From contig JAEHCK010000012.1 in assembly GCA_020696345.1 (NCBI GenBank), positions 1-64,000 of the forward strand: a DNA stretch of 64,000 nucleotides. Reading direction: 5' to 3'. The stretch comes from Thermoplasmata archaeon (GTDB lineage: Archaea > Thermoplasmatota > Penumbrarchaeia > JAEHCK01). The notes beneath the pieces are model-generated. The model saw only the letters and a list, made by a program, of their open reading frames with translations. It had not been told where the DNA came from and did no database searches. The position numbers and the translations under genes were made by a program. Positions 1 to 60,701 of this stretch are shown piece after piece; the stretch's first letter is position 1; every line of letters begins with the position of its first letter.

Positions 1-412
1 CATAAGCAGTGTAGAATAACATCACTTTATCATACGAATCAGCCTTTCTCGCAACATCTTGAATCGCCCTTAAAATGTTTTCTTTTCCAGTAGTACCACT
101 ACTCGTCACTTCTTTATCTCTCTCCAAATATGGAAAATCACAGGTTGATTTTGGAAAATTATCATGCACACCAACATAATTAATCTGATCCTGCAAGTAA
201 TATCCTGTATATCCCGGCCCGGGCTTGGTGTTATTGTGATGCTCTGTCAACATTAGACCCATCTCCTGGATGTGTCCTCGGAACTGGCTTCTATCAAAAG
301 CGATATCACCTTTGCTCCCCTCGATCAGTATCGCGAATCTATTATCACCGTTACCGTTATGTTTCGGTAGGTCCACGGCGTTCGCCAGCGTCCGGCTCAC
401 TGCTCGGGACAT
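1..412 (-). CDS. Caspase-like (clan CD) module, partial at window edge
   Basis: The frame is open on the minus strand from ATG at 412 to the left edge, about 137 residues, with the C-terminus outside the window. It aligns by eye, residue for residue, with residues about 2258-2385 of the 2671-residue protein at 5590-13605. Shared stretches include NGDNRFAILIEGSKG, the YTGYYLQDQI segment, KSTCD, YLERDK and ARKADSYDKV. The strand that should end in the catalytic His-Gly of caspase-fold proteases reads FYTAY at the edge, so the His is Tyr here as in the large paralogue. The large upstream region of the paralogue is missing: the frame continues only about 21 codons upstream of the ATG before a stop. 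I therefore suspect a truncated duplicate, either a short gene or a remnant. No good ribosome binding site is evident. Confidence 0.6.
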   Translation of the reverse strand, partial: MSRAVSRTLANAVDLPKHNGNGDNRFAILIEGSKGDIAFDRSQFRGHIQEMGLMLTEHHNNTKPGPGYTGYYLQDQINYVGVHDNFPKSTCDFPYLERDKEVTSSGTTGKENILRAIQDVARKADSYDKVMLFYTAY

Positions 413-716
413 TTGAGATTCATTATCGATATGGTCAAATGCCCTCGGGCTCGCCCCCTGATTAATTGTTGCTTACCATTCCGCAAACCCGCCCGAAACC
501 TCGTAAGGTTTCGGCATCGCCGTGATATGATTTTTTGCATTATATCCGCCTCCAACTCCGTTCCCCCTGACCCATGTTCCGCACCTGCGGTGGCACAAGC
601 CCATCCCCCCTTGTGCCGTCCTCGGCACGGATTGATTATTTAATTCCAATGATAATAATATATGGGTATGTCAATAATTATATTAAGAACTATGTTATTT
701 AAACTTAATCGTTGAG
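413..716. other. GC-rich intergenic stretch with two hairpins
   Basis: This 300-base stretch is far richer in GC than the AT-rich genes on either side. It has two perfect inverted repeats: a 9-bp stem with a 4-nt loop at 493-514 and an 8-bp stem at 592-617. Parts of it (about 435-455 and 575-592) resemble DNA at about 13970-14012. No convincing gene is seen here. Confidence 0.5.
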
Positions 717-1520
717 TTAAATTACATTTACATTTTGTCTTTTTATATCAAATAGCAATTGAATAAAAATTGAATATAAAATTACAAATTTTAATTTCAT
801 TTCAAACATATTAAATAATCCTACAAGGTCACCGTCATTAAGCGTAATTTCAAATGTTTTTTTACCAGATTTAATATCGGTAAATTTAATAGTATTATCA
901 TTTATAAATTCAAATCTTCCATGAGCTACGGAATTTCTAATATGAGTTATATCAGCTTTTCCTTCCGATCCTTGTTTTCTAATTGTAAAAAAATCCTCAA
1001 TTAGTTGATCTCTCTTCTTTTTATCTATTTTCATTCCTATATCTATAAGCATAACCATCTTTTTTCTAATAAATCCATTAGAACTGGCATATGCTTCGTA
1101 TCTAAGTATATGAGCTAAACAGAGTAAAAACATAAAATTTTTTTTAGATTTTCGAGATTTCTTTTTTTCAAAAGATTGTATTTCTTGAAATAATATTCCC
1201 AAAGAATTTTCAATTTTATCTAATCTTCCTGTTTCATCTTTAAGTAAATTTACTTTTTTCCCAGATTTTAATCTTTTTCCATAGACTTTAATAATAATTT
1301 TTTCAAAGATTTTATAAGATTTTTCATATGAAATATCTCTATTACAAAACTCTGAAATAAGCATATTTTCTCCTTTAAGTAACATTTGTTGTTTAATAAC
1401 ATTTTTATTATCATATCTCTTTAATTCTTGTATAAAAATTCTTTTTGTTTTGTTGAATTTGAATTTTTTTGTCATTTCTATTATATTTATTAAATTATTT
1501 CTAACATTATCAATTTTCAA
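717..1520 (-). CDS. HEPN-like domain protein (candidate RNase or defence protein)
   Basis: A 267-residue, Lys/Ile/Asn-rich protein. Near residues 192-201 it has the motif HIRNSVAHG, which fits the R-N-x3-H signature (R-x4-H) of HEPN domains. Many such domains act as metal-independent RNases in toxin-antitoxin, abortive-infection and CRISPR systems. The motif is followed by a beta-rich segment (GRFEFINDNTIKFTD) and a C-terminal hydrophobic helix, a layout I recall from several HEPN families. The start is TTG at 1520, chosen because GGAGGC (1528-1533) sits 7-8 nt upstream. The gene is very AT-rich compared with the housekeeping genes. A 62-nt structured inverted repeat lies just upstream. The target is unknown, and no separate antitoxin of the MNT type is adjacent. 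Confidence 0.5.
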   Translation of the reverse strand: MKIDNVRNNLINIIEMTKKFKFNKTKRIFIQELKRYDNKNVIKQQMLLKGENMLISEFCNRDISYEKSYKIFEKIIIKVYGKRLKSGKKVNLLKDETGRLDKIENSLGILFQEIQSFEKKKSRKSKKNFMFLLCLAHILRYEAYASSNGFIRKKMVMLIDIGMKIDKKKRDQLIEDFFTIRKQGSEGKADITHIRNSVAHGRFEFINDNTIKFTDIKSGKKTFEITLNDGDLVGLFNMFEMKLKFVILYSIFIQLLFDIKRQNVNVI

Positions 1521-1575: not shown

Positions 1576-1637
1576 ACAAAAACTTTATCTCCCGTCTTTG
1601 CACATTGTAATGCAAAGCCAGAAAGTAAAGTTTTTGT
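1576..1637. repeat. 62-nt nested inverted repeat (12-bp outer, 7-bp inner stem)
   Basis: Perfect 12-bp outer arms lie at 1576-1587 and 1626-1637. They enclose a symmetric 8/8-nt internal loop and perfect 7-bp inner arms CTTTGCA/TGCAAAG around an 8-nt loop. It lies between the divergently transcribed HEPN-like and PD-(D/E)XK-like genes. It could be a structured RNA, an operator or a small mobile palindrome; the sequence alone does not decide. Confidence 0.65.
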
Positions 1638-1775: not shown

Positions 1776-2102
1776 ATGAGTTGGATAAATCATTTGACGA
1801 GGTTATCGAACGAGCCATATAGGCATTTCATGGCGAAAGCCTGTATGTTCTGGATCCTACGTAAGTTGAAGCATGATGTTGCTACCGAGTGGGGTGTAGG
1901 TAATGGTTATGTGGATCTATGCGACAAGACAACCCGCACCCTGTATGAGATTGAGTTCCAGGTATCAGCCAAGCATTTCGCAGAGAAACGCGAACAGTAT
2001 AATATCAGCGGTTATGAAATTATAATCGTAAATTGTTCAAAGATGCCAATGGAAATCAATCAAATGATGAAGTTTCTTGAGCAGTATGTTGTTCCTGATT
2101 AG
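1776..2102 (+). CDS. Small PD-(D/E)XK-like protein (putative nuclease)
   Basis: A 108-residue protein. The central part reads EWGVGNGYVDL, then YEIEFQ, giving E37, D47, E58/E60 and Q62 on predicted beta strands. This matches the (E)-D-ExQ/K pattern of PD-(D/E)XK nuclease folds. The usual Lys is not in place; Gln62 or Lys66 may substitute. ATG 1776 is preceded by GGAG (1763-1766), which is why it was chosen. The last 47 bases overlap, tail to tail, the 3' end of the minus-strand surface protein gene. It stands divergently beside the HEPN-like gene, so the two may form a small defence or mobile-element islet. I do not recognise a named family, and the nuclease call is a motif-level inference. 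Confidence 0.5.
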   Translation: MSWINHLTRLSNEPYRHFMAKACMFWILRKLKHDVATEWGVGNGYVDLCDKTTRTLYEIEFQVSAKHFAEKREQYNISGYEIIIVNCSKMPMEINQMMKFLEQYVVPD

Positions 2103-5100
2103 GTGTGTTTTGTTCTTGTTCAGACCCAGATGAAGTTATGGTCTGCTCAACTAGCGATGGCTTCTCTTCATCTTTTGTTAAACTTTCTTCGGTTGTTTCA
2201 ACTTGTCCAGGCGGTAATCTCGGCACTTGTTTGGCCACTGGTACTGATATCTGTTCAGGTTCTTGCTTTTTAACGACGGGAGACAATATAGATTGTTTTG
2301 ATCCGTCAGATGTAGCTGAAACCGGCAATTGCTCAGAAGAGGATGCTGCCTGGATCTGCTCTTGAACTATTTCTGAAGTGGTCGCTACACCAGACTCCTC
2401 GATCTCCGCCTCCACGGTCGGCAGCGGTCTTTGTTTAGCACGTTTCTTGCGCGTCACGATCAACATGAATATACATATCAGGATCACAATGATAATAATT
2501 ACAAGAAATATATAAAACCAAATATTTTCGGAAATGGTATCGGTCGTTGATGTTTCCTTATCTTCAGTTATCTTGATGGTTAAGGTTACCTTTTTCTCGA
2601 GTATGAATTTGTGCATGGCTGCATTTCCGGAAGCTGCCACAATGGTTAGTTGTATCTCACCTTTTTTTACATCTTTCATAGCAGATATCGTTATGTTGAA
2701 TTCTGCAGTACCATTTGGGATAATATTTCTAATTTTTGGTCCGTTTATTGATGCATTAATGCCTTGAACAGCTTGATCCAGTGGTTTCAACACGATCATA
2801 TCGTCGACGTCGCCCAGGTTGGTCACGATGGCGGTGATGGATATTTGTTCGCCGGGCTTTATCTCCACCAGATCGGGTACGATTGTCAGTGTGAAATCAA
2901 AGTTTGGTGTGGGTATGATAGTTATTTTTACATTAGCTATAGATATCTCACCGGCGATGTCGGAAACTTCCAGTCTGATCTGGTGCTGACCAGATGGTAA
3001 TAAGATATAAGTTAGGTTTTTTCCTTCGCCAAATTTACCTGAGATGTTCGAATACCATTTAAATGTTAATCTATCCACGTAGATCAGGTCAGGGTCATCA
3101 CAGATCGCCGAGAAATTGATTTCTGTCCCGTTCTCGACCTCAACCCTATCCTTTGGTTCAATGATCACCGCCGGCCCGGGAGCGTCATTCACCGGTGTTA
3201 CGGTTATGGTAACATTGTCAGAAACATTGAAGACACTGTCGTTAGCATAGAAAATTAATGTCTCTTTACCGTTCCAGTTCTTTTCCGGAATCAATGTTAC
3301 GGTGCCGTTATTCTGATGAATGGTGACATTGAGATGTGCCTGGCCTTCGCATTGAAACACCAATGGGTCGTTGTTGATATCTTTGAACCAATGATAAAGA
3401 TTAATTGAGTTATCAATCGTATCCTCCGGTATCTCGAAATCCTTGATTGAATTATTGATCACCGGCCAGTGTTGTCCCAAAGTGGTTATTCCTTGCGCTA
3501 AATTCGAAAACCCTGATTCATTCGGTACTTCATCGAAGGCAGTAATGACATAATAATAAGTTGTTTCTTCATCCAGGCCAGTATCAATATATTCTTCATT
3601 GTTTTTTTCTATAGTATCAATGGGCTCGCCCCATTTGTTTGGATCTGATTTTTCACTTTTAAAGAGATTGTACCCTTCCAGATCAGGTTCAATGTTCGGG
3701 TCCCAAATCAATGTGGTAGAATTGTGGGTGGTAGAAATTACTTCTAATCCATTGGGTGGTTTTGGCGGGACAGAGTCCCATGGGATTCCTGAAACGATTA
3801 CAGAATAATTGGATAACTGCCCACGATGGTCTCTTGCCATGATACGATATTGATACGTTTCCCCGTCATTCAGGCCGGTGTGGTTATAAGTGAAACCGGG
3901 ATGTGTAATTGGTTCAATTTGTTCCCAATCAACCATCGTTTCATTCTTGAATTCCAAATCGTAATGGTCCGTATCCACTGTATTCAAGTCCCATGATATA
4001 TTGAGCGTGTTGCCAGGTGGGTATGTCGAGACTTGAAGATTCTCAGGTATGTTTGGGGGCCAGTCAACGGTGATATCAACGATGTTCGACCATACGCTTT
4101 GATATTTTTCGTTGTATGCTTTGACGCGGTAATAGTAAGTGTCATTTTTTCTGTTAGAAATATTAAAACTTAATTCTGAACCATTGTAGAGTTCTGTTGG
4201 TGAATTGAAATTAGAGTTATTGTCTTCTTGTAATATATATCCTGTTATCCTGGCAGTCACGTTCCATAATAAAGTGTAGTTTCCATCTGTATCGACTTCA
4301 CCGGGATCGCTCAATATCGGTATCCCTGGTTTTAACCAACCTAAAGGATTAATGAAGGGATAATAATCTAGTTTTAAAAATGGTAACTTTGTGTCACCAA
4401 TAGCATCACCTTTGATTAAATGTTTGTCAGTAATATCCCATGAATAAATCATAGCACCTGTATCATTGCCAGTATATTCTGACCAATAGTTGCCTTCTTG
4501 ATTACTATTATTATAATAATTATAAAAGGCATATCCTTCAACAATAGCTGCATCATAATAATTAGCTTTATTCGAAATGAAATTATTATAATAAAAATAA
4601 TTATCTTTCGAGCCGTATTGTAAACTAAAACCACTTTGATTATTGTATGATATTGTATTTCTATAAAAAGTATTATTATTTGATGTAAATAATTTAAAAC
4701 CATCTGTATTTTTTGTAATGGTGTTATTTATAATGAAATTTTTATTACATAGGATATCTAAGTGAATTCCAACATTTCCATTATAAGAACAATAATTATC
4801 AATAACTGTATTTGAATTGGATATATATAGGTTTATACCTACCCATTTATTAAAATTACAAGAATTATTTTTAATAATATTTGTATTTGAAATATAAAAA
4901 TGAATACCAACTCGACTATTATTATTGCAGATGTTATTTTTTATTGAATTTGAAGTTGAATTATAAGAATATATCCCAAAATCATTATTTGAACAATTAT
5001 TATTTTTAATAGTTACATTGTTAACATTCCTTAATTCAATACCCGCATCTAAATCTGTAAATGGAGTAATAAATTTATTACCGCTACCAGTTATAGTAAA

Positions 5101-5484
5101 TCCAGAAATACTCACGAAATTTGCGGAAATATAAACAACATCTCCAATTCCGCTTCCATTTATTATTGTGTTTTTTGTTCCGTTTCCTATTAATGTTACT
5201 GTTTTATTTACAATTAGATTCTCATAATATACCCCTGCCCACACATAAATAATATCTCCATTACTAGCGTTATTTATCGCATCCTGAATAGTAGTATAAT
5301 TTCCATTACCATTACAATCTACAATTATTATATTTTTAGCAGTTACATTATCAATATTAATTATTTTTTCAAATATGAAAAATCCAATTAAACCTGAGAT
5401 AATCAACACAAATACAATATAAGCAGATATTGCCCCCATTCTTAATTTGTTACCAGACATCTTATTCACATTTCCTAATGTCAT
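2056..5484 (-). CDS. Membrane-anchored surface protein: NosD-type beta-helix, FN3 and cadherin-like domains
   Basis: 1142 residues. An N-terminal hydrophobic segment (about 17-37) exports the chain. Residues about 50-335 form Asn-rich right-handed beta-helix repeats, opening with a YTTIQDAINNA motif and closing with the NYWSEYTG box typical of NosD-like proteins. Three fibronectin type III-like domains follow (about 380-660). After them come a cadherin-like domain (about 665-775, ending TITVTPVNDAPGP), a PKD/Ig-like domain (about 775-865) and a CARDB/NEW3-like domain (about 870-980). A transmembrane helix (about 988-1011), a basic stop-transfer patch and a Glu/Gln/Ser-rich cytoplasmic tail of about 130 residues end the protein. 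Abundant N-x-S/T sequons fit a glycosylated archaeal surface protein. Role is probably adhesion or envelope. The gene at 60702 is an architectural paralogue. Confidence 0.8.
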   Translation of the reverse strand: MTLGNVNKMSGNKLRMGAISAYIVFVLIISGLIGFFIFEKIINIDNVTAKNIIIVDCNGNGNYTTIQDAINNASNGDIIYVWAGVYYENLIVNKTVTLIGNGTKNTIINGSGIGDVVYISANFVSISGFTITGSGNKFITPFTDLDAGIELRNVNNVTIKNNNCSNNDFGIYSYNSTSNSIKNNICNNNSRVGIHFYISNTNIIKNNSCNFNKWVGINLYISNSNTVIDNYCSYNGNVGIHLDILCNKNFIINNTITKNTDGFKLFTSNNNTFYRNTISYNNQSGFSLQYGSKDNYFYYNNFISNKANYYDAAIVEGYAFYNYYNNSNQEGNYWSEYTGNDTGAMIYSWDITDKHLIKGDAIGDTKLPFLKLDYYPFINPLGWLKPGIPILSDPGEVDTDGNYTLLWNVTARITGYILQEDNNSNFNSPTELYNGSELSFNISNRKNDTYYYRVKAYNEKYQSVWSNIVDITVDWPPNIPENLQVSTYPPGNTLNISWDLNTVDTDHYDLEFKNETMVDWEQIEPITHPGFTYNHTGLNDGETYQYRIMARDHRGQLSNYSVIVSGIPWDSVPPKPPNGLEVISTTHNSTTLIWDPNIEPDLEGYNLFKSEKSDPNKWGEPIDTIEKNNEEYIDTGLDEETTYYYVITAFDEVPNESGFSNLAQGITTLGQHWPVINNSIKDFEIPEDTIDNSINLYHWFKDINNDPLVFQCEGQAHLNVTIHQNNGTVTLIPEKNWNGKETLIFYANDSVFNVSDNVTITVTPVNDAPGPAVIIEPKDRVEVENGTEINFSAICDDPDLIYVDRLTFKWYSNISGKFGEGKNLTYILLPSGQHQIRLEVSDIAGEISIANVKITIIPTPNFDFTLTIVPDLVEIKPGEQISITAIVTNLGDVDDMIVLKPLDQAVQGINASINGPKIRNIIPNGTAEFNITISAMKDVKKGEIQLTIVAASGNAAMHKFILEKKVTLTIKITEDKETSTTDTISENIWFYIFLVIIIIVILICIFMLIVTRKKRAKQRPLPTVEAEIEESGVATTSEIVQEQIQAASSSEQLPVSATSDGSKQSILSPVVKKQEPEQISVPVAKQVPRLPPGQVETTEESLTKDEEKPSLVEQTITSSGSEQEQNTPNQEQHTAQETSSFD

Positions 5485-5589: not shown

Positions 5590-8500
5590 TCAGAATAAAT
5601 AATTATTTCCTTCTTCTAAGTAAGTATATTCTATTTTTGGTTCGTCATACCATGGATCAAATGCACCATTTTTATTCAATCGATAACCTAGATGCCAGAG
5701 TTTCATAAAATTATATGATTCTTCAGAAGATATATAATCATTTGAATACCCACTTATTGATGGAAAATGTGAATAACCATTTAATGCATTTGTAGTGCTT
5801 TCATCAGCATCTAATATATCATTACTTTGCACAGTACTTTGAGTAAATCTATCAATGTATATAGCTTCAGTTAATCCCGAAACAAATTCAACACCGTTAT
5901 CTCCCCAATTTTCATAAAAATCTATTCCATTCGAAGGTTTTTCTCTTTCAATTTCATATAACTCATCATTATACTTTGATAATTCATACTGCCAAACTGT
6001 TTGACCTGAGGTTGGATTATATTCTTCGTAATCAATCTTTGGAGCATCACCATCATCGTATTGTTTGCCTTGTGCAATCCACCACCCAACATAATAAACC
6101 TGTGTTGTTGAACTTATTTCCTTATTACACAAATCAAAATCATATTCTTTTCCATTTGTTCTGGATTCCCCAGCCTTATCACTCGTGATAATTACCCGAT
6201 TTGTCTCATCTTTATAAGTCGTAGATGTAATTTTATCCCGCTTTAATTCATCTATCCAATCACCAGAAAAATCCGGCTGCAAAATAATTGTCATATCTTT
6301 GCATTCAATGGTATCCAAATAATTGTCCAACCCATATAGTTTTTTGATTGTTATAATAGAATTTATATCTGGCGTTAAGTCAATGGGTGTAATTGAATTG
6401 CTATTATCCGCATCAAAGAAATATTCAGTTGTTCCTCCAAACGATTGCGTTCCACCGTATCCCGTATAAAAGAAAAGCACCTTATCATATGAATCGGATT
6501 TCCTGGCAACCTCTTGAATAGCCCAAAAAATGTTTTTCAAACCCATTTTTTGCGTAACTTGTTTATCTCTCTCCAGATACGGATAATCACAAGTTGATTT
6601 TGGATAATCATCATGTATACCAACATAGAATATCTGATCCTGCAGATAGTACCCAGTATATCCCGGTTCCGGTTTTATATTATTCTCGTGTTCGGTGAGC
6701 ATCTTCGCCATTTCGCGAATATTAGCTTCGAACTGTTCCTGTTGGAACGGTTCATTCGGATTTGCCTTGATACCTTTGCTCCCCTCGATCAGTATCGCAA
6801 ACCGATTATCACCGTTACCGTTATGTTTCGGCCCTGCCCCGAACATGCCCCACTTGATAGCTTCGGGGTAAGATTCGTAATCATCGGATTCTTTCAATCT
6901 CTCAGCCCCTGCACCCATAATGATCTCGACCTTTTGATTACCATCGGTGTCGGCTATTGCGGACGATGCGATATATGTTGGATATTCCACGCCCGTTCCC
7001 AGTGCGTAATAGCTGTAGTCCTCATCCACGGCACCCGCGGTATCCAGGCAGTAGATGTGTCCATCCGCGGACATTGCGACCGTTTCGTAGCCGCCGTCGG
7101 GGAATGAATTGAGGTCAACCGCCGATGGTGATACGCTGAACGCACCCTTCGTGCCTTCGCCTACCGCGGGGAACTGCCAGTTCAGGGTGCCATCCGAGTT
7201 TAAGCAATATGTGACGCCGTTATCGGAACCGATCACGACCTCAAGCTCTTCTGTTGAAATATCGACATTAGCGATGGAAGGTGATGAGCGGATTGGTGAG
7301 TAGGTGTTGAATGTCCATTTTAGTTTACCTTCATAATCTATGCAATAAATCTTACCATCATCGCAACCAACTACTATTTCCATATAACCATCGCGGTCGA
7401 GATCGCCGATGGCGGGGGTGGATTTGATTGGAGAGCCGGTATCATATGGTTGTAGCTCTTCTTTTGAACCTATCCATATATGATCACCCTTATGATTTAA
7501 ACAATAAATTTTTCCATTCTCATTACATATTATTATCTCTAATAAATCATTATTGTTTAAATCACCGATTACTGGCGATGAATATGTGTCTGCATTATAT
7601 GGATCTCTATAAAATAGTTCGCCTATCCAAGTATCACCTATTACCCCCAATGCTGGACTTCTTAACCCAGCATGTAATATAATCTTATTTGTATCATAAA
7701 ATCCTTCCATACCAAAAGAATGTCTGACACTCGGTTTGGTATTAGGTCTTGCTTTTGTTAAAGTCCATATGTTATTGCTTTGATCATACACCCAATTATC
7801 ATATATCATTCCAAGGCTCCCTCCGTATCCGCCAAATAGAAATGCTTTATCATCATTCCATATAGATGCCATTTCTCCTGATCTTTTGGTTGGGATATAT
7901 ATTGGATTAAATGTTAGTTTGATCCATTTGTTAGTAGGGGTATTTGAATTATATTCCCAAGTATCGTCAAGATAATTAGTTGTAATTCCATTAAAATTAC
8001 GACCACCAAAAAGTACTACATTATCAGTTCCATAGATAGTTGCCATTGAATGACCTTCTCTAGCATTTGGTTTAATTGACATTTTTTTCTCAGTCCACTC
8101 ATCACTACTATAATCATATTCCCAAGTATCATCAAAATAATTCCAATCGATAGAGCATCCTCCAAAAAGCACAACTTTATCTGTTTCGTGAATAGAGGCC
8201 ATTGCATGCCAAATTCTTTTACTTGGTTTAGGAGGTGATGGATTCATTTTTGTCCAACTGTTAGCACTGAAATCATATACCCAAGTATCATCGAAAAAAT
8301 TAGTTGAATTTCTACCGCCGAATAGTACAACCTTATCCGTTCCCCAAATAGTTGCCATTGCATGACTTTCTCTAGCATTTGGTTTGCTCCCTGAAGGATT
8401 TTTATCAGTCCAAGTTTTGGTACTTAAATCGTACACCCAAGTATCATCAATTAATGGGGATTTTTTACCACCAAAAAGCAACACTTTATCTGTTCCATGA

Positions 8501-11500
8501 ATGGTTGCCATTCCAAAATCAGATCTCTTACCTGGTGTGTTTGTTGGGCTTGGTGTAGATGGAGTCGTCTCTTCCCAATATATAGTTGATTTTGGTATTA
8601 AGGGATCTTCTATCCAGAGTACCTTAAGCTTATAATCAAAACAATAAATTCTACCAATATAATTTACCATTACTATCTCAAGATATTTATTCTGAACAAT
8701 ATTAGCAATGGCTGGTGAAGAATAAAATGGAGATGCGATCGGTGTGGTTTGGGGAATATTAATATCAAATACAGATGTGTCATAACTCCATTTGGTATTA
8801 CCATTTACATCTAATATATAAACCCAACCTTCAACCGTACCCACAACAATTTCCAACTCCTTATCATTATCCACATCAGCAATTGCGGGTGAACATACAA
8901 TATTCTTTCCAAGAAGTGCCTTCTTTATTGGAATTGGGTTATTATCTTCATAAAAGTATAACCCATAATCTTCACCGCTCCTACCAATCACTCTTCTAGT
9001 CTCTGTTTTATAAGATGTACTTCCACTATCCCATTTACTATACTGCAATATCGCCGGCGCGGCCTCGAAATGATGAAACTGGTACTCTGGATGGAACAAC
9101 CCCTGGTCTTTCGATTTTTCTTTACCATCTTTCGTTTCATCGGCGTCGGTATCCGGGTCGTTGGGATCGGATATATCGGGTCCCAGTTGGACACTGATAT
9201 CCAAAAGTTCGATTGTTTCTTCTACATTTGCTGAGAACTTCAATGGTATGGAAATATATCCATTCTCATCGATCTCATATTCATGATTTGCGATATAATC
9301 GTTCAACTCTGCCGAGAAATCATATATCGGGTACATGACTTCGTAATTCCCTGGCGTGTAATCCACCGTGCTATCGTCACCCACATCAAGGGTTGGGAGA
9401 GCAGGAATATTGTTATTTATATAATTATAACAGATATCTCCATCCTCAAGTGTACCAGCAGAAAAATCATTCCATACGACATGTATCTTACCGGTCCCGT
9501 CCGCCGCCGCCTTGGGGAATCGTGAGTCTTTTCCAAGATCTTCACTCAGTTCCACCGCCGAGCCCCAGGTAACGCCATTATCCGTGCTCCTTCTATATTT
9601 GATCTGGTAATTCGAGACTCCCGGTGGTTCTTCATATATATCTTCACTCCAGAATACATATAATAACGAATTTTTAACATCCACCACAATAGAGGGGTCT
9701 ATCGAATCCACTCCAGGCGATGCGGATATAACGAATACATTATCCCATGTTCTTCCATTATCAGTGCTCCTTTTATAGTAGACTTCTGTAATTGTAAGGT
9801 CTGGATAATCAACCCAAACGGCATGAACATTTTTACCGTCAACCGCAATGCAGCCCGTACTATCTCCGCTGTCCGTGCCAAACGCGGATCTAACATTATT
9901 ACCATCGGTCAATTGCTCACGCTGAACAGCCGTATTTCCGTTATTATACAGCCTCATATAATCGACCTCACAATCTTGACCGTCCGGGTCGTCATCGTTG
10001 AACACGACATGTACATTACTGCTGTCCACACCAATGTCCGGTTTGTTCGGCGAGCCGCCGGCGGTATTGTCCGCCCTGATCGAGTCCACAATCCCCCAGC
10101 TGTCACCATTTGTACTACTTTTACTGTATACTATCTCATCGTCATCAGGTGAAGTATACCAAACCACGTGAACATTCTTACCGTCAACCGCGATGTTTGG
10201 TTCATACGAATCGTCTATATCCGATAACCTAGTATCATCCAACGGCCATTCATTGTCATCACCCTCTTTTTCATTTTTCGAATAATATATCTTTCTTTCA
10301 TTCAGATCATCAACGGTCGCGTAAACTACATGGATATTGTCATCGTACACATCTATTGAAGGATAACCCGCATCGTATTGAGGCGGATTTGAAAACTCAT
10401 GACTTAAAGTCCATGAAGAGCCGCCATCATTGCTTCCTATATATTGCACACTATCCCCAGTCAAACCAGTTTCATAATTTTGAAAAACTACATGTATTCT
10501 ATCTCCACCACTAGTCACCGCTATATCCGGATATTTGTTCTCCTGCCCCGTAATTCCGTCTTGAGCGCCAAAGCCGGTTTCCTCGCTCCTAACCTTAATG
10601 TTCATACTGGCCTTTGTGACATATCTTCTGACGAGCCCCTGGATAGGAATTTCCAGATTTGTCGTACCCTGCCCACCTTCCAGAACCACCACATTATCCG
10701 AATCATCAGATATTGTGGTGACTTCCATTGGTTTATCGTTGGAAATTCTAACAAACACCCCTTTGTCAACATAAATTCTCTCAGTAATTGAAACGTCTAG
10801 AGCACTTAAGTAAATAATATTATGAGTTAATGTGATAATAGAATCAAATTTATACCATCTATAATAATTATCATAGATTGTTTTGGTTACATCATAATCT
10901 TCTTCTTGAATGGTATATCTTATTTTTAATTCAGCAGGTTCACCATCTTTCAATCTGGCTTTAATATAATAAAGATATGTATTTTCAATAGATAAACCTT
11001 GGAATTCCACATTTATTACCTCTCCATCGCCTCCTGATGCACTATATGCTGCATCATCACCTTTTGGCTTCGGATCATTTGCTGTAGGATCCTCTACTGA
11101 TATGCCACCAGAACCTAAGTTATCCTCGGCCTCGAACCAATATACTCCATTTTGGACTTCTCCATCATCATTTAATACATCGAAATCAGTATCAAATAAT
11201 ATGGGACTTGAAGAATAATTAATTAATTCAAAATAATCCGAGATAGTATCGAAATCCGTATCGGAATGTTCTGAACTTGTACAAAATTGAAATTCTTCCA
11301 GATTTACCAAATTATCATTATCCTGGTCCAAATTGGCATCATTGGGATCGTTTGGGTTCAGACCGTGCTGTAGCTCATACCAATCAGGCATACCATCAAA
11401 ATCCGAATCAGGTGCAGACATCCTTGAATAATCATATTCGGTCAAGTTGATAATTGGTAAAGAGTTCGAATCAACTTCAAGATCATAGATAATGCTATTG

Positions 11501-13605
11501 ATTATTACCGATAAATCGATTCCAGGTGAACTATCAATGAATTTGATACTTATATCATTAGTTGATAATTCATTATTCGATATATTTATCGAAGAGCTGT
11601 TAAATACAATACCAAAATCATTTTGTGAGATCGAATTATTGGTGATCGTACTATTTTCCGAATTTTGTGCTGAATCGTCAATATATATGCCATAATAACA
11701 ATTTGAGATAGAAGTGTTAAAAATTGTCGGATTGCTCTGGTTAATATAAATACCGCTTCCGGAGAAATTATCTATTTCGGAATTTATTATTATTGAATCC
11801 GAATATAGTTGAATTCCGCTTTTTGGCTCATTTGAACTGCCATTTATATTAAAAACCGAACATTCACTCATGGTCATATTGCCTTCGACTTTGAATTCAT
11901 AAGGATAATTCGCATTATAACTCTTAATTTCGGTGGAATATAACGATAAATTACCCCCTGGTTTCACCCAGATCATGTAGGTATCGCTGGCCGTACTGTT
12001 CATGATCAAATAACTGTTTGACAATATCAATGCCTGGTTATTATCAATTGTCAGGTTATTATTTAGAATTAAATATTCCTCGCCCGAAAACGGGTTCGTA
12101 TTCCAGATATTCAATTCTGCACTATCGTTCATCCCATCCGAGTCGGTATCCATGTTTATCGGGTCGGTACCATTTTGAAATTCTTCCAGATTGGTCAAAC
12201 CATCGGAATCGTAATCAAGATTAGAATCGCTGCTATTAGAATTATTCAGACCATATTGATATTCAAAATAATCTGGCATCGAATCGGTGTCATTATCGGG
12301 GGCGGATATTTTTGACCAATTGTATTCGGTTAAATATATATCGGGAAAAGAATTTGAAGATACATTGATATCTGCATTATTGTTTACAAATTTACATGAG
12401 AAGATCGATGAATAACTTTCAATCAATTTTAATCCGATTTCATTGGATATGAATTTTGTATCGGAAATCTCCGGAGATGCATTGTGCAAAACCATACCGA
12501 TTTCGTTATTCAAAATAGTATTTTTCATGATCAGAGAATCCTCATAATTATTTGTTATATCCTCAATTTCGACTAATGCCGATATTGTAGTGTTATTTGC
12601 GTCTACCACTTGAACAACGCTTATCCCTTCCCATTTTGCGGTATATGATCCATTTTGGTCAATCGAGCCAAAAGTCGAATTGTCTACTGTCCAGTTCAAT
12701 GGTGCGGTACCATTTGTAACATTAAATTGCAGATCATCGTCAATGTTCAATACAGCATATGTTGGTGATATTTTCATAGATGTATATGATTCCGGAATCA
12801 CCTGTACCAACGCTTTCCCTATAGTCGTATTATTATCTGCGACCGTAATAATACTCCCACCAATGTTTTGTGAAGTAAAAAAGCCAGTACTATTGATGGT
12901 TCCAACAGTTGTATTTGATGAGTTCCAGGTATAAGGCGGGTCACCACCTGTAACATTGAATTGTACCGAACGATTGGTAAGAATATCGACTTTCGACGGT
13001 GATAACCCCAAAACAGGTACTGGCCCTGCAAAATATATGCCGTAATAACAGTTTGAAACGGTGGTATTATAAATTGTCGGTGTACTTTCGTTTATATATA
13101 TTCCCGTTCCCAAACTGCTATTGATTTTGGAGTCGATAATTACAGAATTAGAATATAATTGAATGCCACCCGTTGGTGTAGATTGAATACCATATAAATT
13201 ATCCAATGTACAATTTTCCATATACATGTCCCCTTCGACAATGAATTCATAGGAATAGTCTATATTATAGCTATTTATTTTTGTAGATAATAAATTCAAA
13301 GTACCACCAGGTTTCACCCATATGTAATATCTATTGCTTGAAGTGCTATTGACTACCAGTTGCACTTTCGATAATTCCAATGTGCCGCTGCTGTTTATTA
13401 TTAAATTTCCGTTCAAGATCAAAGTTTCATTTTCCCTGGTTATATGATCACCATATTCGATATACCAAACATTGGTTGTCTCACCATTTGTAGACGGAGC
13501 ACCATATTCTGCTTCGGCATAAAACAAAATAAAATTCCAAGTTATTGCGGTCATTAAAAATACAACAAAATACGCTCTTATTTTCTTATACTTCTCCAGA
13601 TACAT
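5590..13605 (-). CDS. Giant secreted protein: beta-helices, Ig-like, BNR, nested propellers, pseudo-caspase module
   Basis: 2671 residues. A signal/anchor helix lies at about 10-30. Then come beta-helix repeats with Big_2-like domains (about 40-410) and a thrombospondin-3/EF-hand-like Asp-rich segment (about 436-500). A second beta-helix (about 500-730) and a second Asp-rich segment (about 735-820) follow. Residues about 822-980 resemble a CBM6/35-type domain (WFEAED). Sialidase-like BNR repeats span about 1020-1390. FG-GAP/PQQ-like propeller blades (from about 1565, SPAIADVDND) are interrupted by a kelch propeller (about 1680-1990) and resume to about 2225. A caspase-fold module (about 2260-2671) ends the protein. 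Its His-Gly position reads FFYTGYGG and its Cys position reads LQPDFSG, so it is probably not a protease. AAGGAGG 7 nt upstream supports the start. No C-terminal anchor is seen. Function unknown; a surface or secreted binding role is inferred. Confidence 0.8.
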   Translation of the reverse strand: MYLEKYKKIRAYFVVFLMTAITWNFILFYAEAEYGAPSTNGETTNVWYIEYGDHITRENETLILNGNLIINSSGTLELSKVQLVVNSTSSNRYYIWVKPGGTLNLLSTKINSYNIDYSYEFIVEGDMYMENCTLDNLYGIQSTPTGGIQLYSNSVIIDSKINSSLGTGIYINESTPTIYNTTVSNCYYGIYFAGPVPVLGLSPSKVDILTNRSVQFNVTGGDPPYTWNSSNTTVGTINSTGFFTSQNIGGSIITVADNNTTIGKALVQVIPESYTSMKISPTYAVLNIDDDLQFNVTNGTAPLNWTVDNSTFGSIDQNGSYTAKWEGISVVQVVDANNTTISALVEIEDITNNYEDSLIMKNTILNNEIGMVLHNASPEISDTKFISNEIGLKLIESYSSIFSCKFVNNNADINVSSNSFPDIYLTEYNWSKISAPDNDTDSMPDYFEYQYGLNNSNSSDSNLDYDSDGLTNLEEFQNGTDPINMDTDSDGMNDSAELNIWNTNPFSGEEYLILNNNLTIDNNQALILSNSYLIMNSTASDTYMIWVKPGGNLSLYSTEIKSYNANYPYEFKVEGNMTMSECSVFNINGSSNEPKSGIQLYSDSIIINSEIDNFSGSGIYINQSNPTIFNTSISNCYYGIYIDDSAQNSENSTITNNSISQNDFGIVFNSSSINISNNELSTNDISIKFIDSSPGIDLSVIINSIIYDLEVDSNSLPIINLTEYDYSRMSAPDSDFDGMPDWYELQHGLNPNDPNDANLDQDNDNLVNLEEFQFCTSSEHSDTDFDTISDYFELINYSSSPILFDTDFDVLNDDGEVQNGVYWFEAEDNLGSGGISVEDPTANDPKPKGDDAAYSASGGDGEVINVEFQGLSIENTYLYYIKARLKDGEPAELKIRYTIQEEDYDVTKTIYDNYYRWYKFDSIITLTHNIIYLSALDVSITERIYVDKGVFVRISNDKPMEVTTISDDSDNVVVLEGGQGTTNLEIPIQGLVRRYVTKASMNIKVRSEETGFGAQDGITGQENKYPDIAVTSGGDRIHVVFQNYETGLTGDSVQYIGSNDGGSSWTLSHEFSNPPQYDAGYPSIDVYDDNIHVVYATVDDLNERKIYYSKNEKEGDDNEWPLDDTRLSDIDDSYEPNIAVDGKNVHVVWYTSPDDDEIVYSKSSTNGDSWGIVDSIRADNTAGGSPNKPDIGVDSSNVHVVFNDDDPDGQDCEVDYMRLYNNGNTAVQREQLTDGNNVRSAFGTDSGDSTGCIAVDGKNVHAVWVDYPDLTITEVYYKRSTDNGRTWDNVFVISASPGVDSIDPSIVVDVKNSLLYVFWSEDIYEEPPGVSNYQIKYRRSTDNGVTWGSAVELSEDLGKDSRFPKAAADGTGKIHVVWNDFSAGTLEDGDICYNYINNNIPALPTLDVGDDSTVDYTPGNYEVMYPIYDFSAELNDYIANHEYEIDENGYISIPLKFSANVEETIELLDISVQLGPDISDPNDPDTDADETKDGKEKSKDQGLFHPEYQFHHFEAAPAILQYSKWDSGSTSYKTETRRVIGRSGEDYGLYFYEDNNPIPIKKALLGKNIVCSPAIADVDNDKELEIVVGTVEGWVYILDVNGNTKWSYDTSVFDINIPQTTPIASPFYSSPAIANIVQNKYLEIVMVNYIGRIYCFDYKLKVLWIEDPLIPKSTIYWEETTPSTPSPTNTPGKRSDFGMATIHGTDKVLLFGGKKSPLIDDTWVYDLSTKTWTDKNPSGSKPNARESHAMATIWGTDKVVLFGGRNSTNFFDDTWVYDFSANSWTKMNPSPPKPSKRIWHAMASIHETDKVVLFGGCSIDWNYFDDTWEYDYSSDEWTEKKMSIKPNAREGHSMATIYGTDNVVLFGGRNFNGITTNYLDDTWEYNSNTPTNKWIKLTFNPIYIPTKRSGEMASIWNDDKAFLFGGYGGSLGMIYDNWVYDQSNNIWTLTKARPNTKPSVRHSFGMEGFYDTNKIILHAGLRSPALGVIGDTWIGELFYRDPYNADTYSSPVIGDLNNNDLLEIIICNENGKIYCLNHKGDHIWIGSKEELQPYDTGSPIKSTPAIGDLDRDGYMEIVVGCDDGKIYCIDYEGKLKWTFNTYSPIRSSPSIANVDISTEELEVVIGSDNGVTYCLNSDGTLNWQFPAVGEGTKGAFSVSPSAVDLNSFPDGGYETVAMSADGHIYCLDTAGAVDEDYSYYALGTGVEYPTYIASSAIADTDGNQKVEIIMGAGAERLKESDDYESYPEAIKWGMFGAGPKHNGNGDNRFAILIEGSKGIKANPNEPFQQEQFEANIREMAKMLTEHENNIKPEPGYTGYYLQDQIFYVGIHDDYPKSTCDYPYLERDKQVTQKMGLKNIFWAIQEVARKSDSYDKVLFFYTGYGGTQSFGGTTEYFFDADNSNSITPIDLTPDINSIITIKKLYGLDNYLDTIECKDMTIILQPDFSGDWIDELKRDKITSTTYKDETNRVIITSDKAGESRTNGKEYDFDLCNKEISSTTQVYYVGWWIAQGKQYDDGDAPKIDYEEYNPTSGQTVWQYELSKYNDELYEIEREKPSNGIDFYENWGDNGVEFVSGLTEAIYIDRFTQSTVQSNDILDADESTTNALNGYSHFPSISGYSNDYISSEESYNFMKLWHLGYRLNKNGAFDPWYDEPKIEYTYLEEGNNYLF

Positions 13606-14352: not shown

Positions 14353-16106
14353 TATTCTCCGCCAAAGAATCCACGCAGTACCGGATGCATCTCCATCATT
14401 TGCTCTTTGCCGATCTCCTCGTATAATCTAATGATTATACCTACGGTTAATAACACGCCAGTTCCGCTTGAATTACCAACCGTTCCGATCATATCGGCTC
14501 CTGCAGCCAATCCGCCGACAAATGCTCCGCTGATCACGGTGACCATGGGAATATACCTCTCCAGTACTTTTCGCAATACACGCGGATCGCGCCTGAAACC
14601 AGGGATCTGCATACCGCTGCTCTCGATCTGTTTTGCCACGTCCTCCGGGCCCATATTGGTTGTCTCGATCCAGAATTTTGCAAATAATACGGAGCCAATT
14701 ACCATCACACTCATATAAATTACCACATGCAAGATGACTTGATATAACTCATGGCCGGTGACATAAGGCCCGTATCTGTCCCAATTTAACGCTGGCAATA
14801 GCCATTCGTGGACGCCACTGATCTGGGATAGATACCATGCACCGCCGTAAAGTGGTTTTGTAACATTTTCACCGGTTTCCGTGGTATATGCACCGATCCA
14901 CCATTGGTGACCTAATAATGGTATTTTCTGCAGCGTCGGATGGCTCCAGAGTAATAAAGAGAACATATTCACATTTGCCAATAATGCGGACATTAAGATA
15001 ACCGGAATATTTGATGCGTAAATAAGCCTGATCGGGTACCTGCCGCGCGCACCGCGTACCCTACCATGTGCCAGCGGCAGCTCGATGCGGGCGGATTCCA
15101 CATATGCCACGATCAAGAATATCAGGATCGTACCGATCAATGCGATGATCGGATTGGGCGGCCCTAAAAATATCTGCTCGAGCCCGCCGCCGTTCGCAAT
15201 ATCGCTCAGCGACATATCAGATAACAAGTCAATGGTTTTGGGTATGGTACCGCTAGGTGTACCCTTGGGTAGTCGATACTCTTCGTAGTTTTTTAACGGG
15301 ATCCAGTTCACGGTACCCGTGAATATTGCCTCGGAAACGCCCGCAGCTATGAATAGACTGATACCACTACCGATGCCCCATTTGGATACCAGCTCGTCCA
15401 TAAGGAACACCAGGTAGCTGCCTGCAATGAGTTGTACCACAATGATGAACCGTGCAAACCCGAGCCCCTCGGTACCTCCACCGAAGGCACTGATCAAAGG
15501 CGCACCGGGCATCAAGTATCCGAATACCTGCGGTACTGCTTCGATGACGATCATGGCGATTACAACAACTTTCTGGGTTCCTTGGTATACTGCCTTGTCC
15601 TCACTCTTTGTCAGGTCAAGAGAGATGATCTTGGCGCCAGTGAACAACTGCATGATAATAGACCCGGTGACGATCGGCCCGATACCCAGATGCATTAATG
15701 AGCCCGATGCACCGGCCATGATCGCCCGGAATTGTGAGAATATATCAAGACTGCCTTCCACATCAAGGCCGAAGATAAAAACATTTGTCAATATGAAATA
15801 GAATACCAAAATGCCCAGGGTCCACATCATTTTGGTGCGAAAATGAACATGTCCTTCTGCGCGTTTGATGGCCGGAAAGCGTTCGATAATGGGTTTTAGG
15901 CCGTATAATTTACTATGTTCGCCTTTATAGGAGATCACCAGATATACTAGCCAGAGTGTAACGCCCATTAGCGGTGGGAATAGAACAGCGCCCAACATAT
16001 CATTATCTTTCCAATAATAGGAGAAATAGATAACTAAAAGTAGGATGTAACCTACTATAATGGGTACTGCCCAGCCCTTTTTTCGTTCTACGGCTTCGCC
16101 TGCCAT
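14352..16106 (-). CDS. secY: Protein translocase subunit SecY (Sec61 alpha)
   Basis: The central pore of the Sec translocon in the cytoplasmic membrane. At 584 residues it is longer than archaeal SecY such as the roughly 436-residue Methanocaldococcus protein. The canonical start motif LKPIIERFPAIKR appears only at about residue 70. Before it lie two additional hydrophobic helices (about 13-31 and 37-60). The plug-region motif GSGISLFIAAGV, the loop ESARIELPLAHGRVRGARGRYPIRLIYASNIPVI (in parts) and a C-terminal RLYEEIGKEQ are present. An enlarged loop between TM7 and TM8 holds about 70 extra residues. It is the last gene of the ribosomal cluster. The adenylate kinase gene often found after secY in euryarchaea is not here. 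Confidence 0.95.
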   Translation of the reverse strand: MAGEAVERKKGWAVPIIVGYILLLVIYFSYYWKDNDMLGAVLFPPLMGVTLWLVYLVISYKGEHSKLYGLKPIIERFPAIKRAEGHVHFRTKMMWTLGILVFYFILTNVFIFGLDVEGSLDIFSQFRAIMAGASGSLMHLGIGPIVTGSIIMQLFTGAKIISLDLTKSEDKAVYQGTQKVVVIAMIVIEAVPQVFGYLMPGAPLISAFGGGTEGLGFARFIIVVQLIAGSYLVFLMDELVSKWGIGSGISLFIAAGVSEAIFTGTVNWIPLKNYEEYRLPKGTPSGTIPKTIDLLSDMSLSDIANGGGLEQIFLGPPNPIIALIGTILIFLIVAYVESARIELPLAHGRVRGARGRYPIRLIYASNIPVILMSALLANVNMFSLLLWSHPTLQKIPLLGHQWWIGAYTTETGENVTKPLYGGAWYLSQISGVHEWLLPALNWDRYGPYVTGHELYQVILHVVIYMSVMVIGSVLFAKFWIETTNMGPEDVAKQIESSGMQIPGFRRDPRVLRKVLERYIPMVTVISGAFVGGLAAGADMIGTVGNSSGTGVLLTVGIIIRLYEEIGKEQMMEMHPVLRGFFGGE

Positions 16107-17131: not shown

Positions 17132-18277
17132 CTACGCTTCTTTTTTAACTTCTATACCTTCTTGACCTTTGCTGGTGATATCGGTTTCGGCGCCATTGGC
17201 CGATACCGACTCCTCTACTTCAATGGCAATGGCGCCACTTATTATATTAAGATCTTCAACCTGTTTCTCGGTAGTTTTAATTTTTGCAGTCTTTCGTAAG
17301 GCGTCGAAAACTGCTTTTGAATAATTAACCGTAGTACGCGTTTCACCACGAGTAAAGCTCCAGGCGTCCTCGATGCCGCTTAACCGTAGAATATGTTTAG
17401 CCACATCGCCAACTGCTAACCCCACACCACGCGGTGCAGGGCGGAAGGTTACTTCGGTGGAACCACTTTTACCTATAACCGTGAACGGAAGTGTATGGGG
17501 TTTTCCGCAACCACATTCCCAGGAACCACAGCCGCGGCGAATACTGATCATATTCAATTTTGCGTTGTCAATGGCTTTCCTGATCGCCGGACCCACCTCT
17601 TTACCTTTTGACCTTCCCAGACCAACATAACCGTTTCCATTACCGACAACGGTCGTGATCGAGAACCTAACACGCCTTCCCGAATCGGTCATGCGCTGGA
17701 CCATATTAACATCCAACACCTCGTCATCAAGGTCAGGTAATAGAATATCAACGATCTCCGCCTCTCTTATTGATAGCCCGGTCGCCAATGCATCTTGTAT
17801 GGTCGTGATCGTACCATCTTTTACCATGTTGCCCAGTCTGGTCTTTGGAACCCAAAAATCCGCACCATCCCTAGATTTGGTTACAAATTTTTTCACACCA
17901 TCAGGTTTAATTGACTTTAGACCCTTTTTCACGACATCTTTCGCGTTTATCTCTACCTTGGATTCCATCTCAACTTCGGGTTTGGTTGTTGGCGGTGTAT
18001 CCATTATCGCCTTTGATTCCGGTGGTTGGGTTGATTCTGTATTTGTGTCGGCAGTCACTGGCTCTGTTTCGATCTCATCAGGCTTGTCTTTATCTTTAGA
18101 TGGAGCCGGATCAGAAATCTTGCCGGTGTCCGCATCATTGGTCGCTTGCGATTGTGAATGTGGATCCTCAGTTTTAGTTGTTGGTGCTGGTGGATTGTCA
18201 TTATTATCATCAATATTGGTCTTTGACTTCTTAACTTCAAGTTCTTTGGATGATTTGTTTTCCGAATCGATAGGCAT
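17132..18277 (-). CDS. rps5: Small-subunit ribosomal protein uS5 with long acidic N-terminal extension
   Basis: 381 residues against about 210-240 usual in archaea. The S5 core runs from about residue 118 (dsRNA-binding N domain) to about 340, with [25 protein letters not shown] in parts and [18 protein letters not shown]. The first about 115 residues are Asp/Pro/Thr/Lys-rich and look disordered, and a short Glu-rich tail follows the core. S5 helps form the mRNA entry channel and accuracy centre. The ATG at 18277 lies 4 nt after the rpl18 stop. The extension is in frame with the core and has no internal strong start signal that I can see, so I keep the long form. Confidence 0.93.
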
Positions 18278-19410: not shown

Positions 19411-20109
19411 TTATCCTCGATTTAATACTCGAATTCCCAGCTCGTCTGCGTGCTCCTCGATATCTATCCGTTTCTTAGTACTGACAGAATGACCGATTCG
19501 TGCAGCTTCTATTTTTGGGTTAATATTTTCCAAATCTGATCTGTTATACACTAATTTCTCTTTGAATCCGGAAGAATGTAAACCACGAACGGTCTCGGGT
19601 GTCTTATATCCCACACGAACTTTGTTGATCCGATATTTCCTATTGGTTCGTAGTTTTGAATGAAGACCTCGCGGTTTCCGCCATGCATCGCCCAGCCGTT
19701 TATACCTGAACCATTCTTGGCGTTTGAACTTGGGTTTCTTACTTTTTGCTTCTCGACGCTTTCGGAGTTGTTTCTTTATCTCAGGAGTCAGTTCAGGTTT
19801 TTGTTTAACTAAATATTCTTTTTCTTCCTCCTCCTCTTCCTCTTCGAGATCCTCATCGACAATCTCAATTTCTTCTTCATCTTCTTCTTTTTTACTGGAT
19901 CTTTTTACCTTGGTTTTGTCTTTACCTTTCGCTTTTACCTTTTCCTTTGGTTTGGCTTTAGCCTTTGTTTCAGTTTTGGCTTTGGCCTTTGTTACAGCTT
20001 TGGCTTTGGCCTTTGTTACAGTTTTGGCTTTAGCCTTTGTTTCTGCTTTTGCAACGGTCTTTGCAACAGTTTTGATCTTGTCTTTCGAAGTTTGAGCCTT
20101 TTTTGCCAT
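19411..20109 (-). CDS. rpl32e: Large-subunit ribosomal protein eL32 with Lys/Ala-repeat N-terminal extension
   Basis: 232 residues. The L32e core is about residues 105-232: FKRQEWFRYKRLGDAWRKPRG, then HSKLR, VRVGYKTPETVRGLHSSG and a C-terminal RIGHSVSTKKRIDIEEHA. The first about 70 residues are repeats of KAKAKTVTKAKAK type, followed by an acidic run of Glu/Asp. Such charged tails are known on ribosomal proteins of some archaea but are not part of the fold. The repeat is encoded by in-frame 18- to 24-bp units and may vary in length between strains. Confidence 0.93.
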   Translation of the reverse strand: MAKKAQTSKDKIKTVAKTVAKAETKAKAKTVTKAKAKAVTKAKAKTETKAKAKPKEKVKAKGKDKTKVKRSSKKEEDEEEIEIVDEDLEEEEEEEEKEYLVKQKPELTPEIKKQLRKRREAKSKKPKFKRQEWFRYKRLGDAWRKPRGLHSKLRTNRKYRINKVRVGYKTPETVRGLHSSGFKEKLVYNRSDLENINPKIEAARIGHSVSTKKRIDIEEHADELGIRVLNRG

Positions 20110-23964: not shown

Positions 23965-24510
23965 TTACATTTTTTCAATTACTACGAATGATTTTGATTT
24001 GCTAAGCGGTCGACACTCCATAATTTTGACCAAGTCACCACGCTGCACATTCAAACACGGAGGGTTATGCACAGCATAGTTATGGGTACGCTTCTCATAA
24101 CGCTCATATTTTGGGATAAATCTCTTAACTTCCCTCTGCACAATAGCGGATTTATTCATTTTGGAGCTAATGACCACTCCATTTAGGATCTGACCACGAA
24201 CAGATAATGTTCCGTGGAAGGGACAAAACCGGTCGTCACAACTCTCGGTTGGTATTGTAACTTCCACACCAATATCACGCGCTTCTTTTACGGATTTAAC
24301 TGCACGAACAACCTTTCGAGCCCGTTTTTTTACCGTACGCTTGGGTCGAACCAGACGTTTCGACTGTGTCTTGTCGATCGCTGCCGCTTTAGCTTGTTTC
24401 TTTTTAACTTTTGGTTTTTCACTTTTTATTTTGTCCTTTGGTTTAGCGTTGTCTTTTTTATTTGACCTCTTTACTGGTTCAGCCTTAGGTGTATTTTTCA
24501 TCTTTATCAC
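23965..24510 (-). CDS. rps17: Small-subunit ribosomal protein uS17 with basic N-terminal extension
   Basis: 181 residues against about 105-115 usual. The S17 core starts at about residue 75 (ARDIGVEVTIPTESCDDRFCPFHG) and includes NGVVISSKMNKSAIVQRE and HNPPCLNVQRGDLVKIMECRPLS in parts. The first about 70 residues are Lys-rich and low in complexity. It starts one base after the rnp1 stop codon. Confidence 0.94.
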   Translation of the reverse strand: MIKMKNTPKAEPVKRSNKKDNAKPKDKIKSEKPKVKKKQAKAAAIDKTQSKRLVRPKRTVKKRARKVVRAVKSVKEARDIGVEVTIPTESCDDRFCPFHGTLSVRGQILNGVVISSKMNKSAIVQREVKRFIPKYERYEKRTHNYAVHNPPCLNVQRGDLVKIMECRPLSKSKSFVVIEKM

Positions 24511-60596: not shown

Positions 60597-60701
60597 GTAG
60601 TGTTATGACATATATTTAACACAAATCTTCGATAATATAATGTATTTGAAAGTGTTTTCAAACGTTTAAAGGTCAAAGAGATCTACAAGTTGGGTATAAC
60701 T

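Follow-up and report, generated by a model that had tools for sequence, protein, structure and literature searches.

A predicted clan CD pseudo-peptidase domain with both catalytic residues replaced at the C-terminus of a secreted archaeal propeller protein

The window, a stretch of 64,000 nucleotides, encodes a 2671-residue secreted protein (here termed W_main). In a sequence-only reading, its last approximately 410 residues had been taken for a caspase-like module of clan CD in which both catalytic residues are replaced. The locus thus raises two questions: whether this module really belongs to the clan CD peptidases, and what a domain of this kind without its catalytic dyad may be kept for at the end of a giant surface protein.

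The W_main gene and its C-terminal domain

The window corresponds to contig C143 in a genome bin of 4.97 Mb (272 contigs; completeness 91%, contamination 6%) and carries an archaeal ribosomal operon (L3, L2, S3, S17, S4e, L6, L32e, L19e, L18, S5, L30, SecY). The W_main gene comes after SecY on the same strand, and its archaeal origin is therefore independent of binning. Long extra terminal regions were observed on the ribosomal proteins S5, L32e, S17 and S3 (window 17132-18277, 19411-20109, 23965-24510 and 25565-26821, respectively); the S5 domain begins at residue 183 of 381 and S3 has a length of 418 aa. At the opposite end of the window a further large beta-helix/fn3/cadherin-like surface protein runs off the edge (60690-63998, plus strand).

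W_main consists of a signal peptide, a right-handed beta-helix/NosD region, Big_2, TSP3 and BNR regions, a PQQ/FG-GAP propeller with an inserted kelch propeller and the C-terminal caspase-like domain. The features of the gene are:

5590..13605, minus strand: W_main, 2671-aa secreted multidomain protein (Pfam, sequence comparison)
13513..13605, minus strand: signal-peptide-like N-terminal hydrophobic segment, residues 9-31 (hydrophobicity)
6910..8910, minus strand: PQQ/FG-GAP-type beta-propeller, residues about 1566-2232, divided by the kelch insert (Pfam, C238 alignment)
7624..8613, minus strand: kelch propeller, residues about 1665-1994, between adjacent blades, missing in the C238 paralogue (Pfam, C238 alignment)
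5593..6831, minus strand: clan CD caspase-like pseudo-peptidase domain, residues 2259-2671, starting at PKHNGNGDNRFAIL (profiles, alignment, fold search)
6457..6459, minus strand: Tyr2383, codon TAC, in place of the catalytic His (intact paralogues: CAT; codon alignment)
6271..6273, minus strand: Asp2445, codon GAT, in place of the catalytic Cys (intact paralogues: TGT/TGC; codon alignment)

Residues 52-957 of C238, a paralogue of the intact type, align with residues 716-1664 of W_main and its residues 953-1603 with residues 1995-2671, and the C238 side of this alignment is gapless at the kelch position. Since the flanks in C238 align with neighbouring coordinates, the kelch block (1665-1994) is an insert in another propeller. 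That the domain belongs to a secreted protein and is fused to nested propellers, as proposed, is borne out by this alignment and by the single N-terminal hydrophobic segment, beyond which no second membrane-like segment was found in W_main.

The motifs named in the sequence-only reading are present in the frame given there. The Tyr of DKVLFFYTGYGG is residue 2383 and the Asp of IILQPDFSG is residue 2445, so that the residue identities were right and the numbering, about 2382 and 2440, was off by 1 and 5, respectively. Compared with intact paralogues, Tyr and Asp stand in the His and Cys columns, as had been claimed, and the replacement of Cys by Asp requires two base changes. A nearby His/Cys pair that could compensate for the loss, which would have spoken against a dead domain, is absent; C182, C240 and H385 of the domain are invariant and common to the intact paralogues.

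The curated Pfam cut-offs were not reached by the W_main domain (Peptidase_C14, 16.3 versus 21.4 bits; Peptidase_C13, no match), and the family evidence was therefore built from the genome's own copies. A first profile of seven copies from the same genome had Arabidopsis metacaspase-4 as its sole match in the PDB (E=3e-4), and the HG and CHSG columns of that enzyme align with Tyr and Asp. A second profile (A5), consisting of the seven copies and the two intact phylum relatives L025 and L027 aligned across the whole domain, matched metacaspase-4 (best E=1.3e-5) and peptide asparaginyl ligases/legumains at E<0.01. The profile search proposed as a check thus gave metacaspase-4 and legumain/ligase chains and bears out the assignment of the last approximately 410 residues to clan CD. 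At the level of sequence profiles, homology of the domain to clan CD peptidases is confirmed.

Among the known families, metacaspases (MEROPS C14B; Arabidopsis metacaspase-4, 6w8s) gave the best profile match to a structure and are among the best by fold, with Tyr/Asp in the His/Cys columns. Unlike metacaspases, the W_main domain has no dyad and no recognisable p10 and is part of a giant extracellular protein; identity to the metacaspases among the listed fold-search matches is 12-21%. In the legumains/asparaginyl endopeptidases (MEROPS C13), the profile match covers the N-terminal strand-helix (RFAILIEGS) and the His-strand region of W_main, whereas the W_main domain lies below the Pfam family cut-offs and has no dyad.

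A structure prediction had likewise been proposed as a check. The first prediction, with seven family members as input, had a pLDDT of 38.8 and was set aside as too poor for use. For the second, UBA33 and partial copies were added, while the phylum relatives from the genome search were left out; its mean pLDDT is 46.8, with about 55-77 in the p20-like core and the lowest values beyond domain residue 212. The first 210 residues are modelled as strand, helix, strand, helix, strand, hairpin, helix, strand, strand, and Tyr and Asp lie in loops after strands 3 and 4, the strands bearing His and Cys in caspases. The predicted strand and helix order of a caspase p20 domain was thus obtained, with moderate support because the confidence of the model is low. 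All 50 matches listed by Foldseek against the PDB are metacaspase, MALT1, legumain/asparaginyl endopeptidase or GSU0716, with TM-scores of 0.21-0.30 by query length; as these scores are low, the fold search is support and not proof. A separate p10 was not recognised, and the approximately 200 C-terminal residues of the domain align to intact relatives and are poorly modelled.

The catalytic His and Cys of active C14/C13 peptidases are replaced by Tyr2383 and Asp2445, and the domain can be classed, on its sequence, as a pseudo-orthocaspase, i.e. a p20 domain with a replaced dyad. The C-terminal module of W_main is accordingly confirmed as a predicted clan CD pseudo-peptidase in which both catalytic residues are replaced.

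Intact and dead paralogues in the genome and the phylum

Nine strong matches to the domain were found in the same genome, several of them cut by contig ends. In alignment A1, the inner C201 copy, C108 and C238 are intact (YTSHG and ILQPC(Y/F)SG) and 45-51% identical to the W_main domain, while W_main, C127_a and the two copies lying at the ends of C127 and C201 read YT(G/A)YG and ILQPD(F/Y)SG. Two more contig-edge fragments cover the Tyr site alone and read Tyr. In the caspase-like domains of L016, L015 and L017, intact copies included, the residue two before the catalytic Cys is Gln (ILQPC). Many clan CD enzymes have an Asp of the P1 pocket at this position, and the cleavage specificity of the intact copies is therefore probably unusual.

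When both catalytic columns were removed before tree building, the four Tyr/Asp copies grouped together (support 92/85), with the three intact copies beside them. The Tyr/Asp pair of W_main and C127_a (dS 0.70, dN 0.13) is under purifying selection and not decaying, because its dN/dS is 0.18; comparable ratios of 0.22-0.27 were obtained for pairs of intact copies. The pair of copies at the ends of C127 and C201 is less constrained (dN/dS 0.46) and patchy in identity, with 0.95-1.00 over the first 120 codons and 0.56-0.80 thereafter. Stops or frameshifts inside the domain were found in none of the copies, and a reading of the caspase-like copies as broken pseudogenes was rejected by dN/dS and open frames.

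A survey of the phylum gave a match in 40 of 390 genomes. Where both sites are readable, the distant matches have His and Cys in 28 of 29 cases, the exception being L037/L077 of genome G027. A single-domain search of the 56 nearest genomes gave no match, nor did a search of viral contigs; two scans of GTDB contigs yielded no close relative and only a distant planctomycete protein and UBA33 (L027). Behind a long run of TSP3-type repeats, a separate clan CD peptidase with an intact dyad (AAHG/IDACYSG) was observed (L018:473-3217, minus strand).

Genome G027 belongs to another family of the phylum. Its 3077-aa protein, with a beta-helix and a PQQ propeller, ends with TAYG...QASYSG (Tyr/Ser), and its gene is followed by one for a PKD protein that has a hydrophobic segment at its C-terminus. 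The contig also carries, some 12 kb away, an intact domain (SSHG...SSCFSG) of 54% identity, followed in turn by a PKD-TM partner; the two partners are 40% identical. The intact and dead domains of G027 are joined at 100/100 in the tree, a single origin of the Tyr/Asp and Tyr/Ser types was rejected (p-AU 5.5e-66), and loss of the dyad arose independently in the G027 lineage. A 270-aa relative in G016, of the same family as G027, has Arg at the Cys site.

The tandem array and its partner gene

The contig sequences place the window at one end of a tandem array in which at least five modules follow one another. Each is composed of a caspase-like domain, a beta-helix/fn3/cadherin-like/TM partner, a 108-aa ORF on the opposite strand and an edge palindrome. 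Within the window the following elements were located:

2056..5484, minus strand: partner gene, 1142 aa, with signal segment, NosD beta-helix, fn3, cadherin-like region, C-terminal transmembrane segment and charged tail
1776..2102, plus strand: 108-aa ORF with YEIEFQ motif, 95-98% identical in five modules
1577..1635, no strand: palindrome of about 60 nt where the repeated module ends sharply on its 3' side
717..1520, minus strand: non-homologous cargo gene between two modules, with RNSVAH (HEPN-type RNxxxH, by eye)
368..631, minus strand: conserved, array-specific structured 5' element, preceding truncated caspase-like copies
2..367, minus strand: start of the next caspase-like copy, 5'-truncated, Tyr-type, cut by the contig end

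The left end of C143 has a 134-bp exact overlap with C127 and C201. The order C143, C127, C201 on the minus strand, with five modules, would be the simplest; an alternative joining is possible. Working-type and dead-type copies stand together in this one array. The array, like the intact paralogues, the anchored partner and the independent case in G027, goes beyond what the sequence-only reading had described. The truncated copies have neither N-terminal domains nor a signal peptide; they have the PKHNGNGDN junction in common with W_main and are colinear with it from there.

The partner gene lies downstream of W_main and has been duplicated together with the caspase-like domain, one copy being present in each module. 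Its fn3 part is under strong constraint (dN/dS about 0.1), and dS along the partner genes is a mosaic of 0.07 beside values over 1, a pattern expected from gene conversion. C108, of the intact type, and its own partner gene overlap by 23 nt, and this partner is 52% identical to that in the window.

The YEIEFQ motif of the 108-aa ORF presumably resembles CoiA-type PD-(D/E)xK nucleases; a library search with this ORF gave no match. Diverged copies of the ORF were observed elsewhere in the genome (C118:9809-10126 and C227:1742-2023). Further cargo genes are present at L014:665-1549 and 7095-8105 and at L015:13029-14393, 14451-15044 and 6596-7200. The cargo genes are mutually non-homologous, lie on one strand and begin just outside the palindromic edge; three have an RNxxxH HEPN-like motif (by eye) and one is retropepsin-like. 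Searches of the cargo genes with PADLOC and PHROGs gave nothing usable.

The structured element (about 260 bp, G+C-rich) was found only in the array, before every truncated domain, in copies that are 84-95% alike (further copies with approximate ends at L014:368-640 and 6777-7040 and L015:12710-12980; partial copy at L015:6408-6510). Its folding is moderate (z -1.9) and the covariation term, from n=4 sequences, is not favourable; in one copy a hairpin is exchanged for an unrelated complementary hairpin (by eye). No match to Rfam was obtained even at E up to 5.

Possible roles of the dead domain

We consider it fairly probable that the dead domain binds rather than cuts and docks on the anchored partner, after loss of the dyad in a single lineage and tandem multiplication. 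The ancestor would have been a propeller-plus-caspase surface protein with an intact His/Cys dyad, which would have been retained in C238, C108 and the inner C201 array copy. In one lineage His would have changed to Tyr and Cys to Asp, and this lineage would then have been multiplied in tandem along with the membrane-anchored beta-helix/fn3 partner gene. The dead domain would retain the binding face of the peptidase as an extracellular recognition module and, by docking on the anchored partner from the adjacent gene, would tether the giant propeller protein to the cell surface. Partner docking is what we infer for the binding function; the partner is proposed as the ligand mainly because of the C108 caspase/partner overlap and the repeated pairing in G027, and every module carries a constrained partner with a C-terminal transmembrane segment. 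The original suggestion that the domain is used for binding or structure would likewise agree with purifying selection. As the truncated copies have no signal peptide, at least some dead domains may stay inside the cell or lack expression, and the Asp in place of Cys could take part in another kind of chemistry; both points count against docking.

It is conceivable, if doubtful, that the truncated copies act as cassettes and that recombination at the PKHNGNGDN junction substitutes their dead or intact C-terminal domains for the end of the single full-length gene, in the manner of antigenic-variation or orphan-module arrays. The shared junction with colinearity beyond it, the patchy identity in domains and partners, with blocks of 0.95-1.00 next to 0.56-0.61, the 134-bp exact overlaps and the uneven partner dS would all fit. 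However, C108 and C238, both intact, carry this junction outside any array, no rearranged allele was seen in the one assembly, and expression of each copy could explain the constraint equally well. Rhs/CDI orphan modules and silent-cassette arrays similarly combine a full-length gene with 5'-truncated C-terminal modules sharing one junction; unlike these, the array here has no recognised toxin/immunity pairs and has a recurring structured element and palindrome, and switching is only hypothetical.

Rather improbable is a regulator that would pair or compete with an intact paralogue (the C201 copy, C108 or C238) and tune its activity. Human FLIP(L), in which Arg and Tyr stand in place of the His/Cys dyad, forms heterodimers with caspase-8 (PMC7586951). 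Here too, intact and dead paralogues share a genome and an array, and G027 has a second such tandem pair, but no dimer interface was identified, and of W_main and the intact array copy only W_main has a signal peptide, so that the two may not meet. Outside the caspases, moreover, clan CD enzymes are often monomeric. FLIP(L) is similar as a dead paralogue beside an intact one and differs in its Arg/Tyr dyad, death-effector domains, cytosolic location and unrelated architecture.

Also unlikely is a wider reading as a new archaeal cassette array composed of structured element, swappable intact and dead ends, partner and possible nuclease, in which recombination would exchange the ends on a secreted receptor and collect defence-like cargo; different cargo genes of the same orientation, often with an HEPN-like motif, would be taken up at the fixed palindromic edge.

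An altered enzyme is very unlikely, be it with a Tyr/Asp chemistry or through loss of an ancestral self-cleavage that had released the protein. The clade is fixed for Tyr/Asp, and the C-terminal position makes self-processing plausible; we know of no clan CD enzyme with an Asp nucleophile, and the intact paralogues also have Gln two positions ahead of the Cys site, so that the active-site change is confined to the dyad. Drift of the catalytic residues in decaying, functionless duplicates can hardly be credited, since, despite the missing N-terminal domains and signal peptide of the truncated copies, all frames are open, dN/dS of W_main/C127_a is low, and every Tyr/Asp copy changed at the same two sites with the neighbouring motif residues kept.

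Prokaryotic pseudo-caspases have previously been tied to bacteria, mostly cyanobacteria and alphaproteobacteria. Asplund-Samuelsson et al. (PMC3501461) found Tyr to be the commonest replacement of His and all archaeal sequences to have intact dyads. In the survey by Klemencic et al. 2019 (PMC6426788), pseudo-forms make up 8.6% of bacterial orthocaspases and 0 of 93 archaeal sequences; the pseudo-dyads named in the passages considered are YS, YA, YN, YG, FS, QC and HA, and Tyr-Asp is not among these. Later reports of archaeal pseudo-caspases were not found in the open-access literature. Relative to the 0 of 93 in that survey, the new aspect is therefore that pseudo-caspases of the known bacterial kind occur here in archaea. 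Bacterial pseudo-orthocaspases (PMC6426788; SyOC of Synechocystis, PMC7889975) resemble the W_main domain in being p20-type homologues with both dyad residues replaced, and several independent origins have been proposed for them, as in the archaeal case. Unlike them, the W_main domain ends a giant secreted propeller protein and is accompanied by a tandem array and an anchored partner gene.

The dyad was lost twice independently in archaea, each time with an intact and a dead paralogue in one genome and an anchored partner adjoining. These are natural matched pairs for asking why a dead protease domain is kept, and the array may show how an archaeon diversifies its surface proteins.
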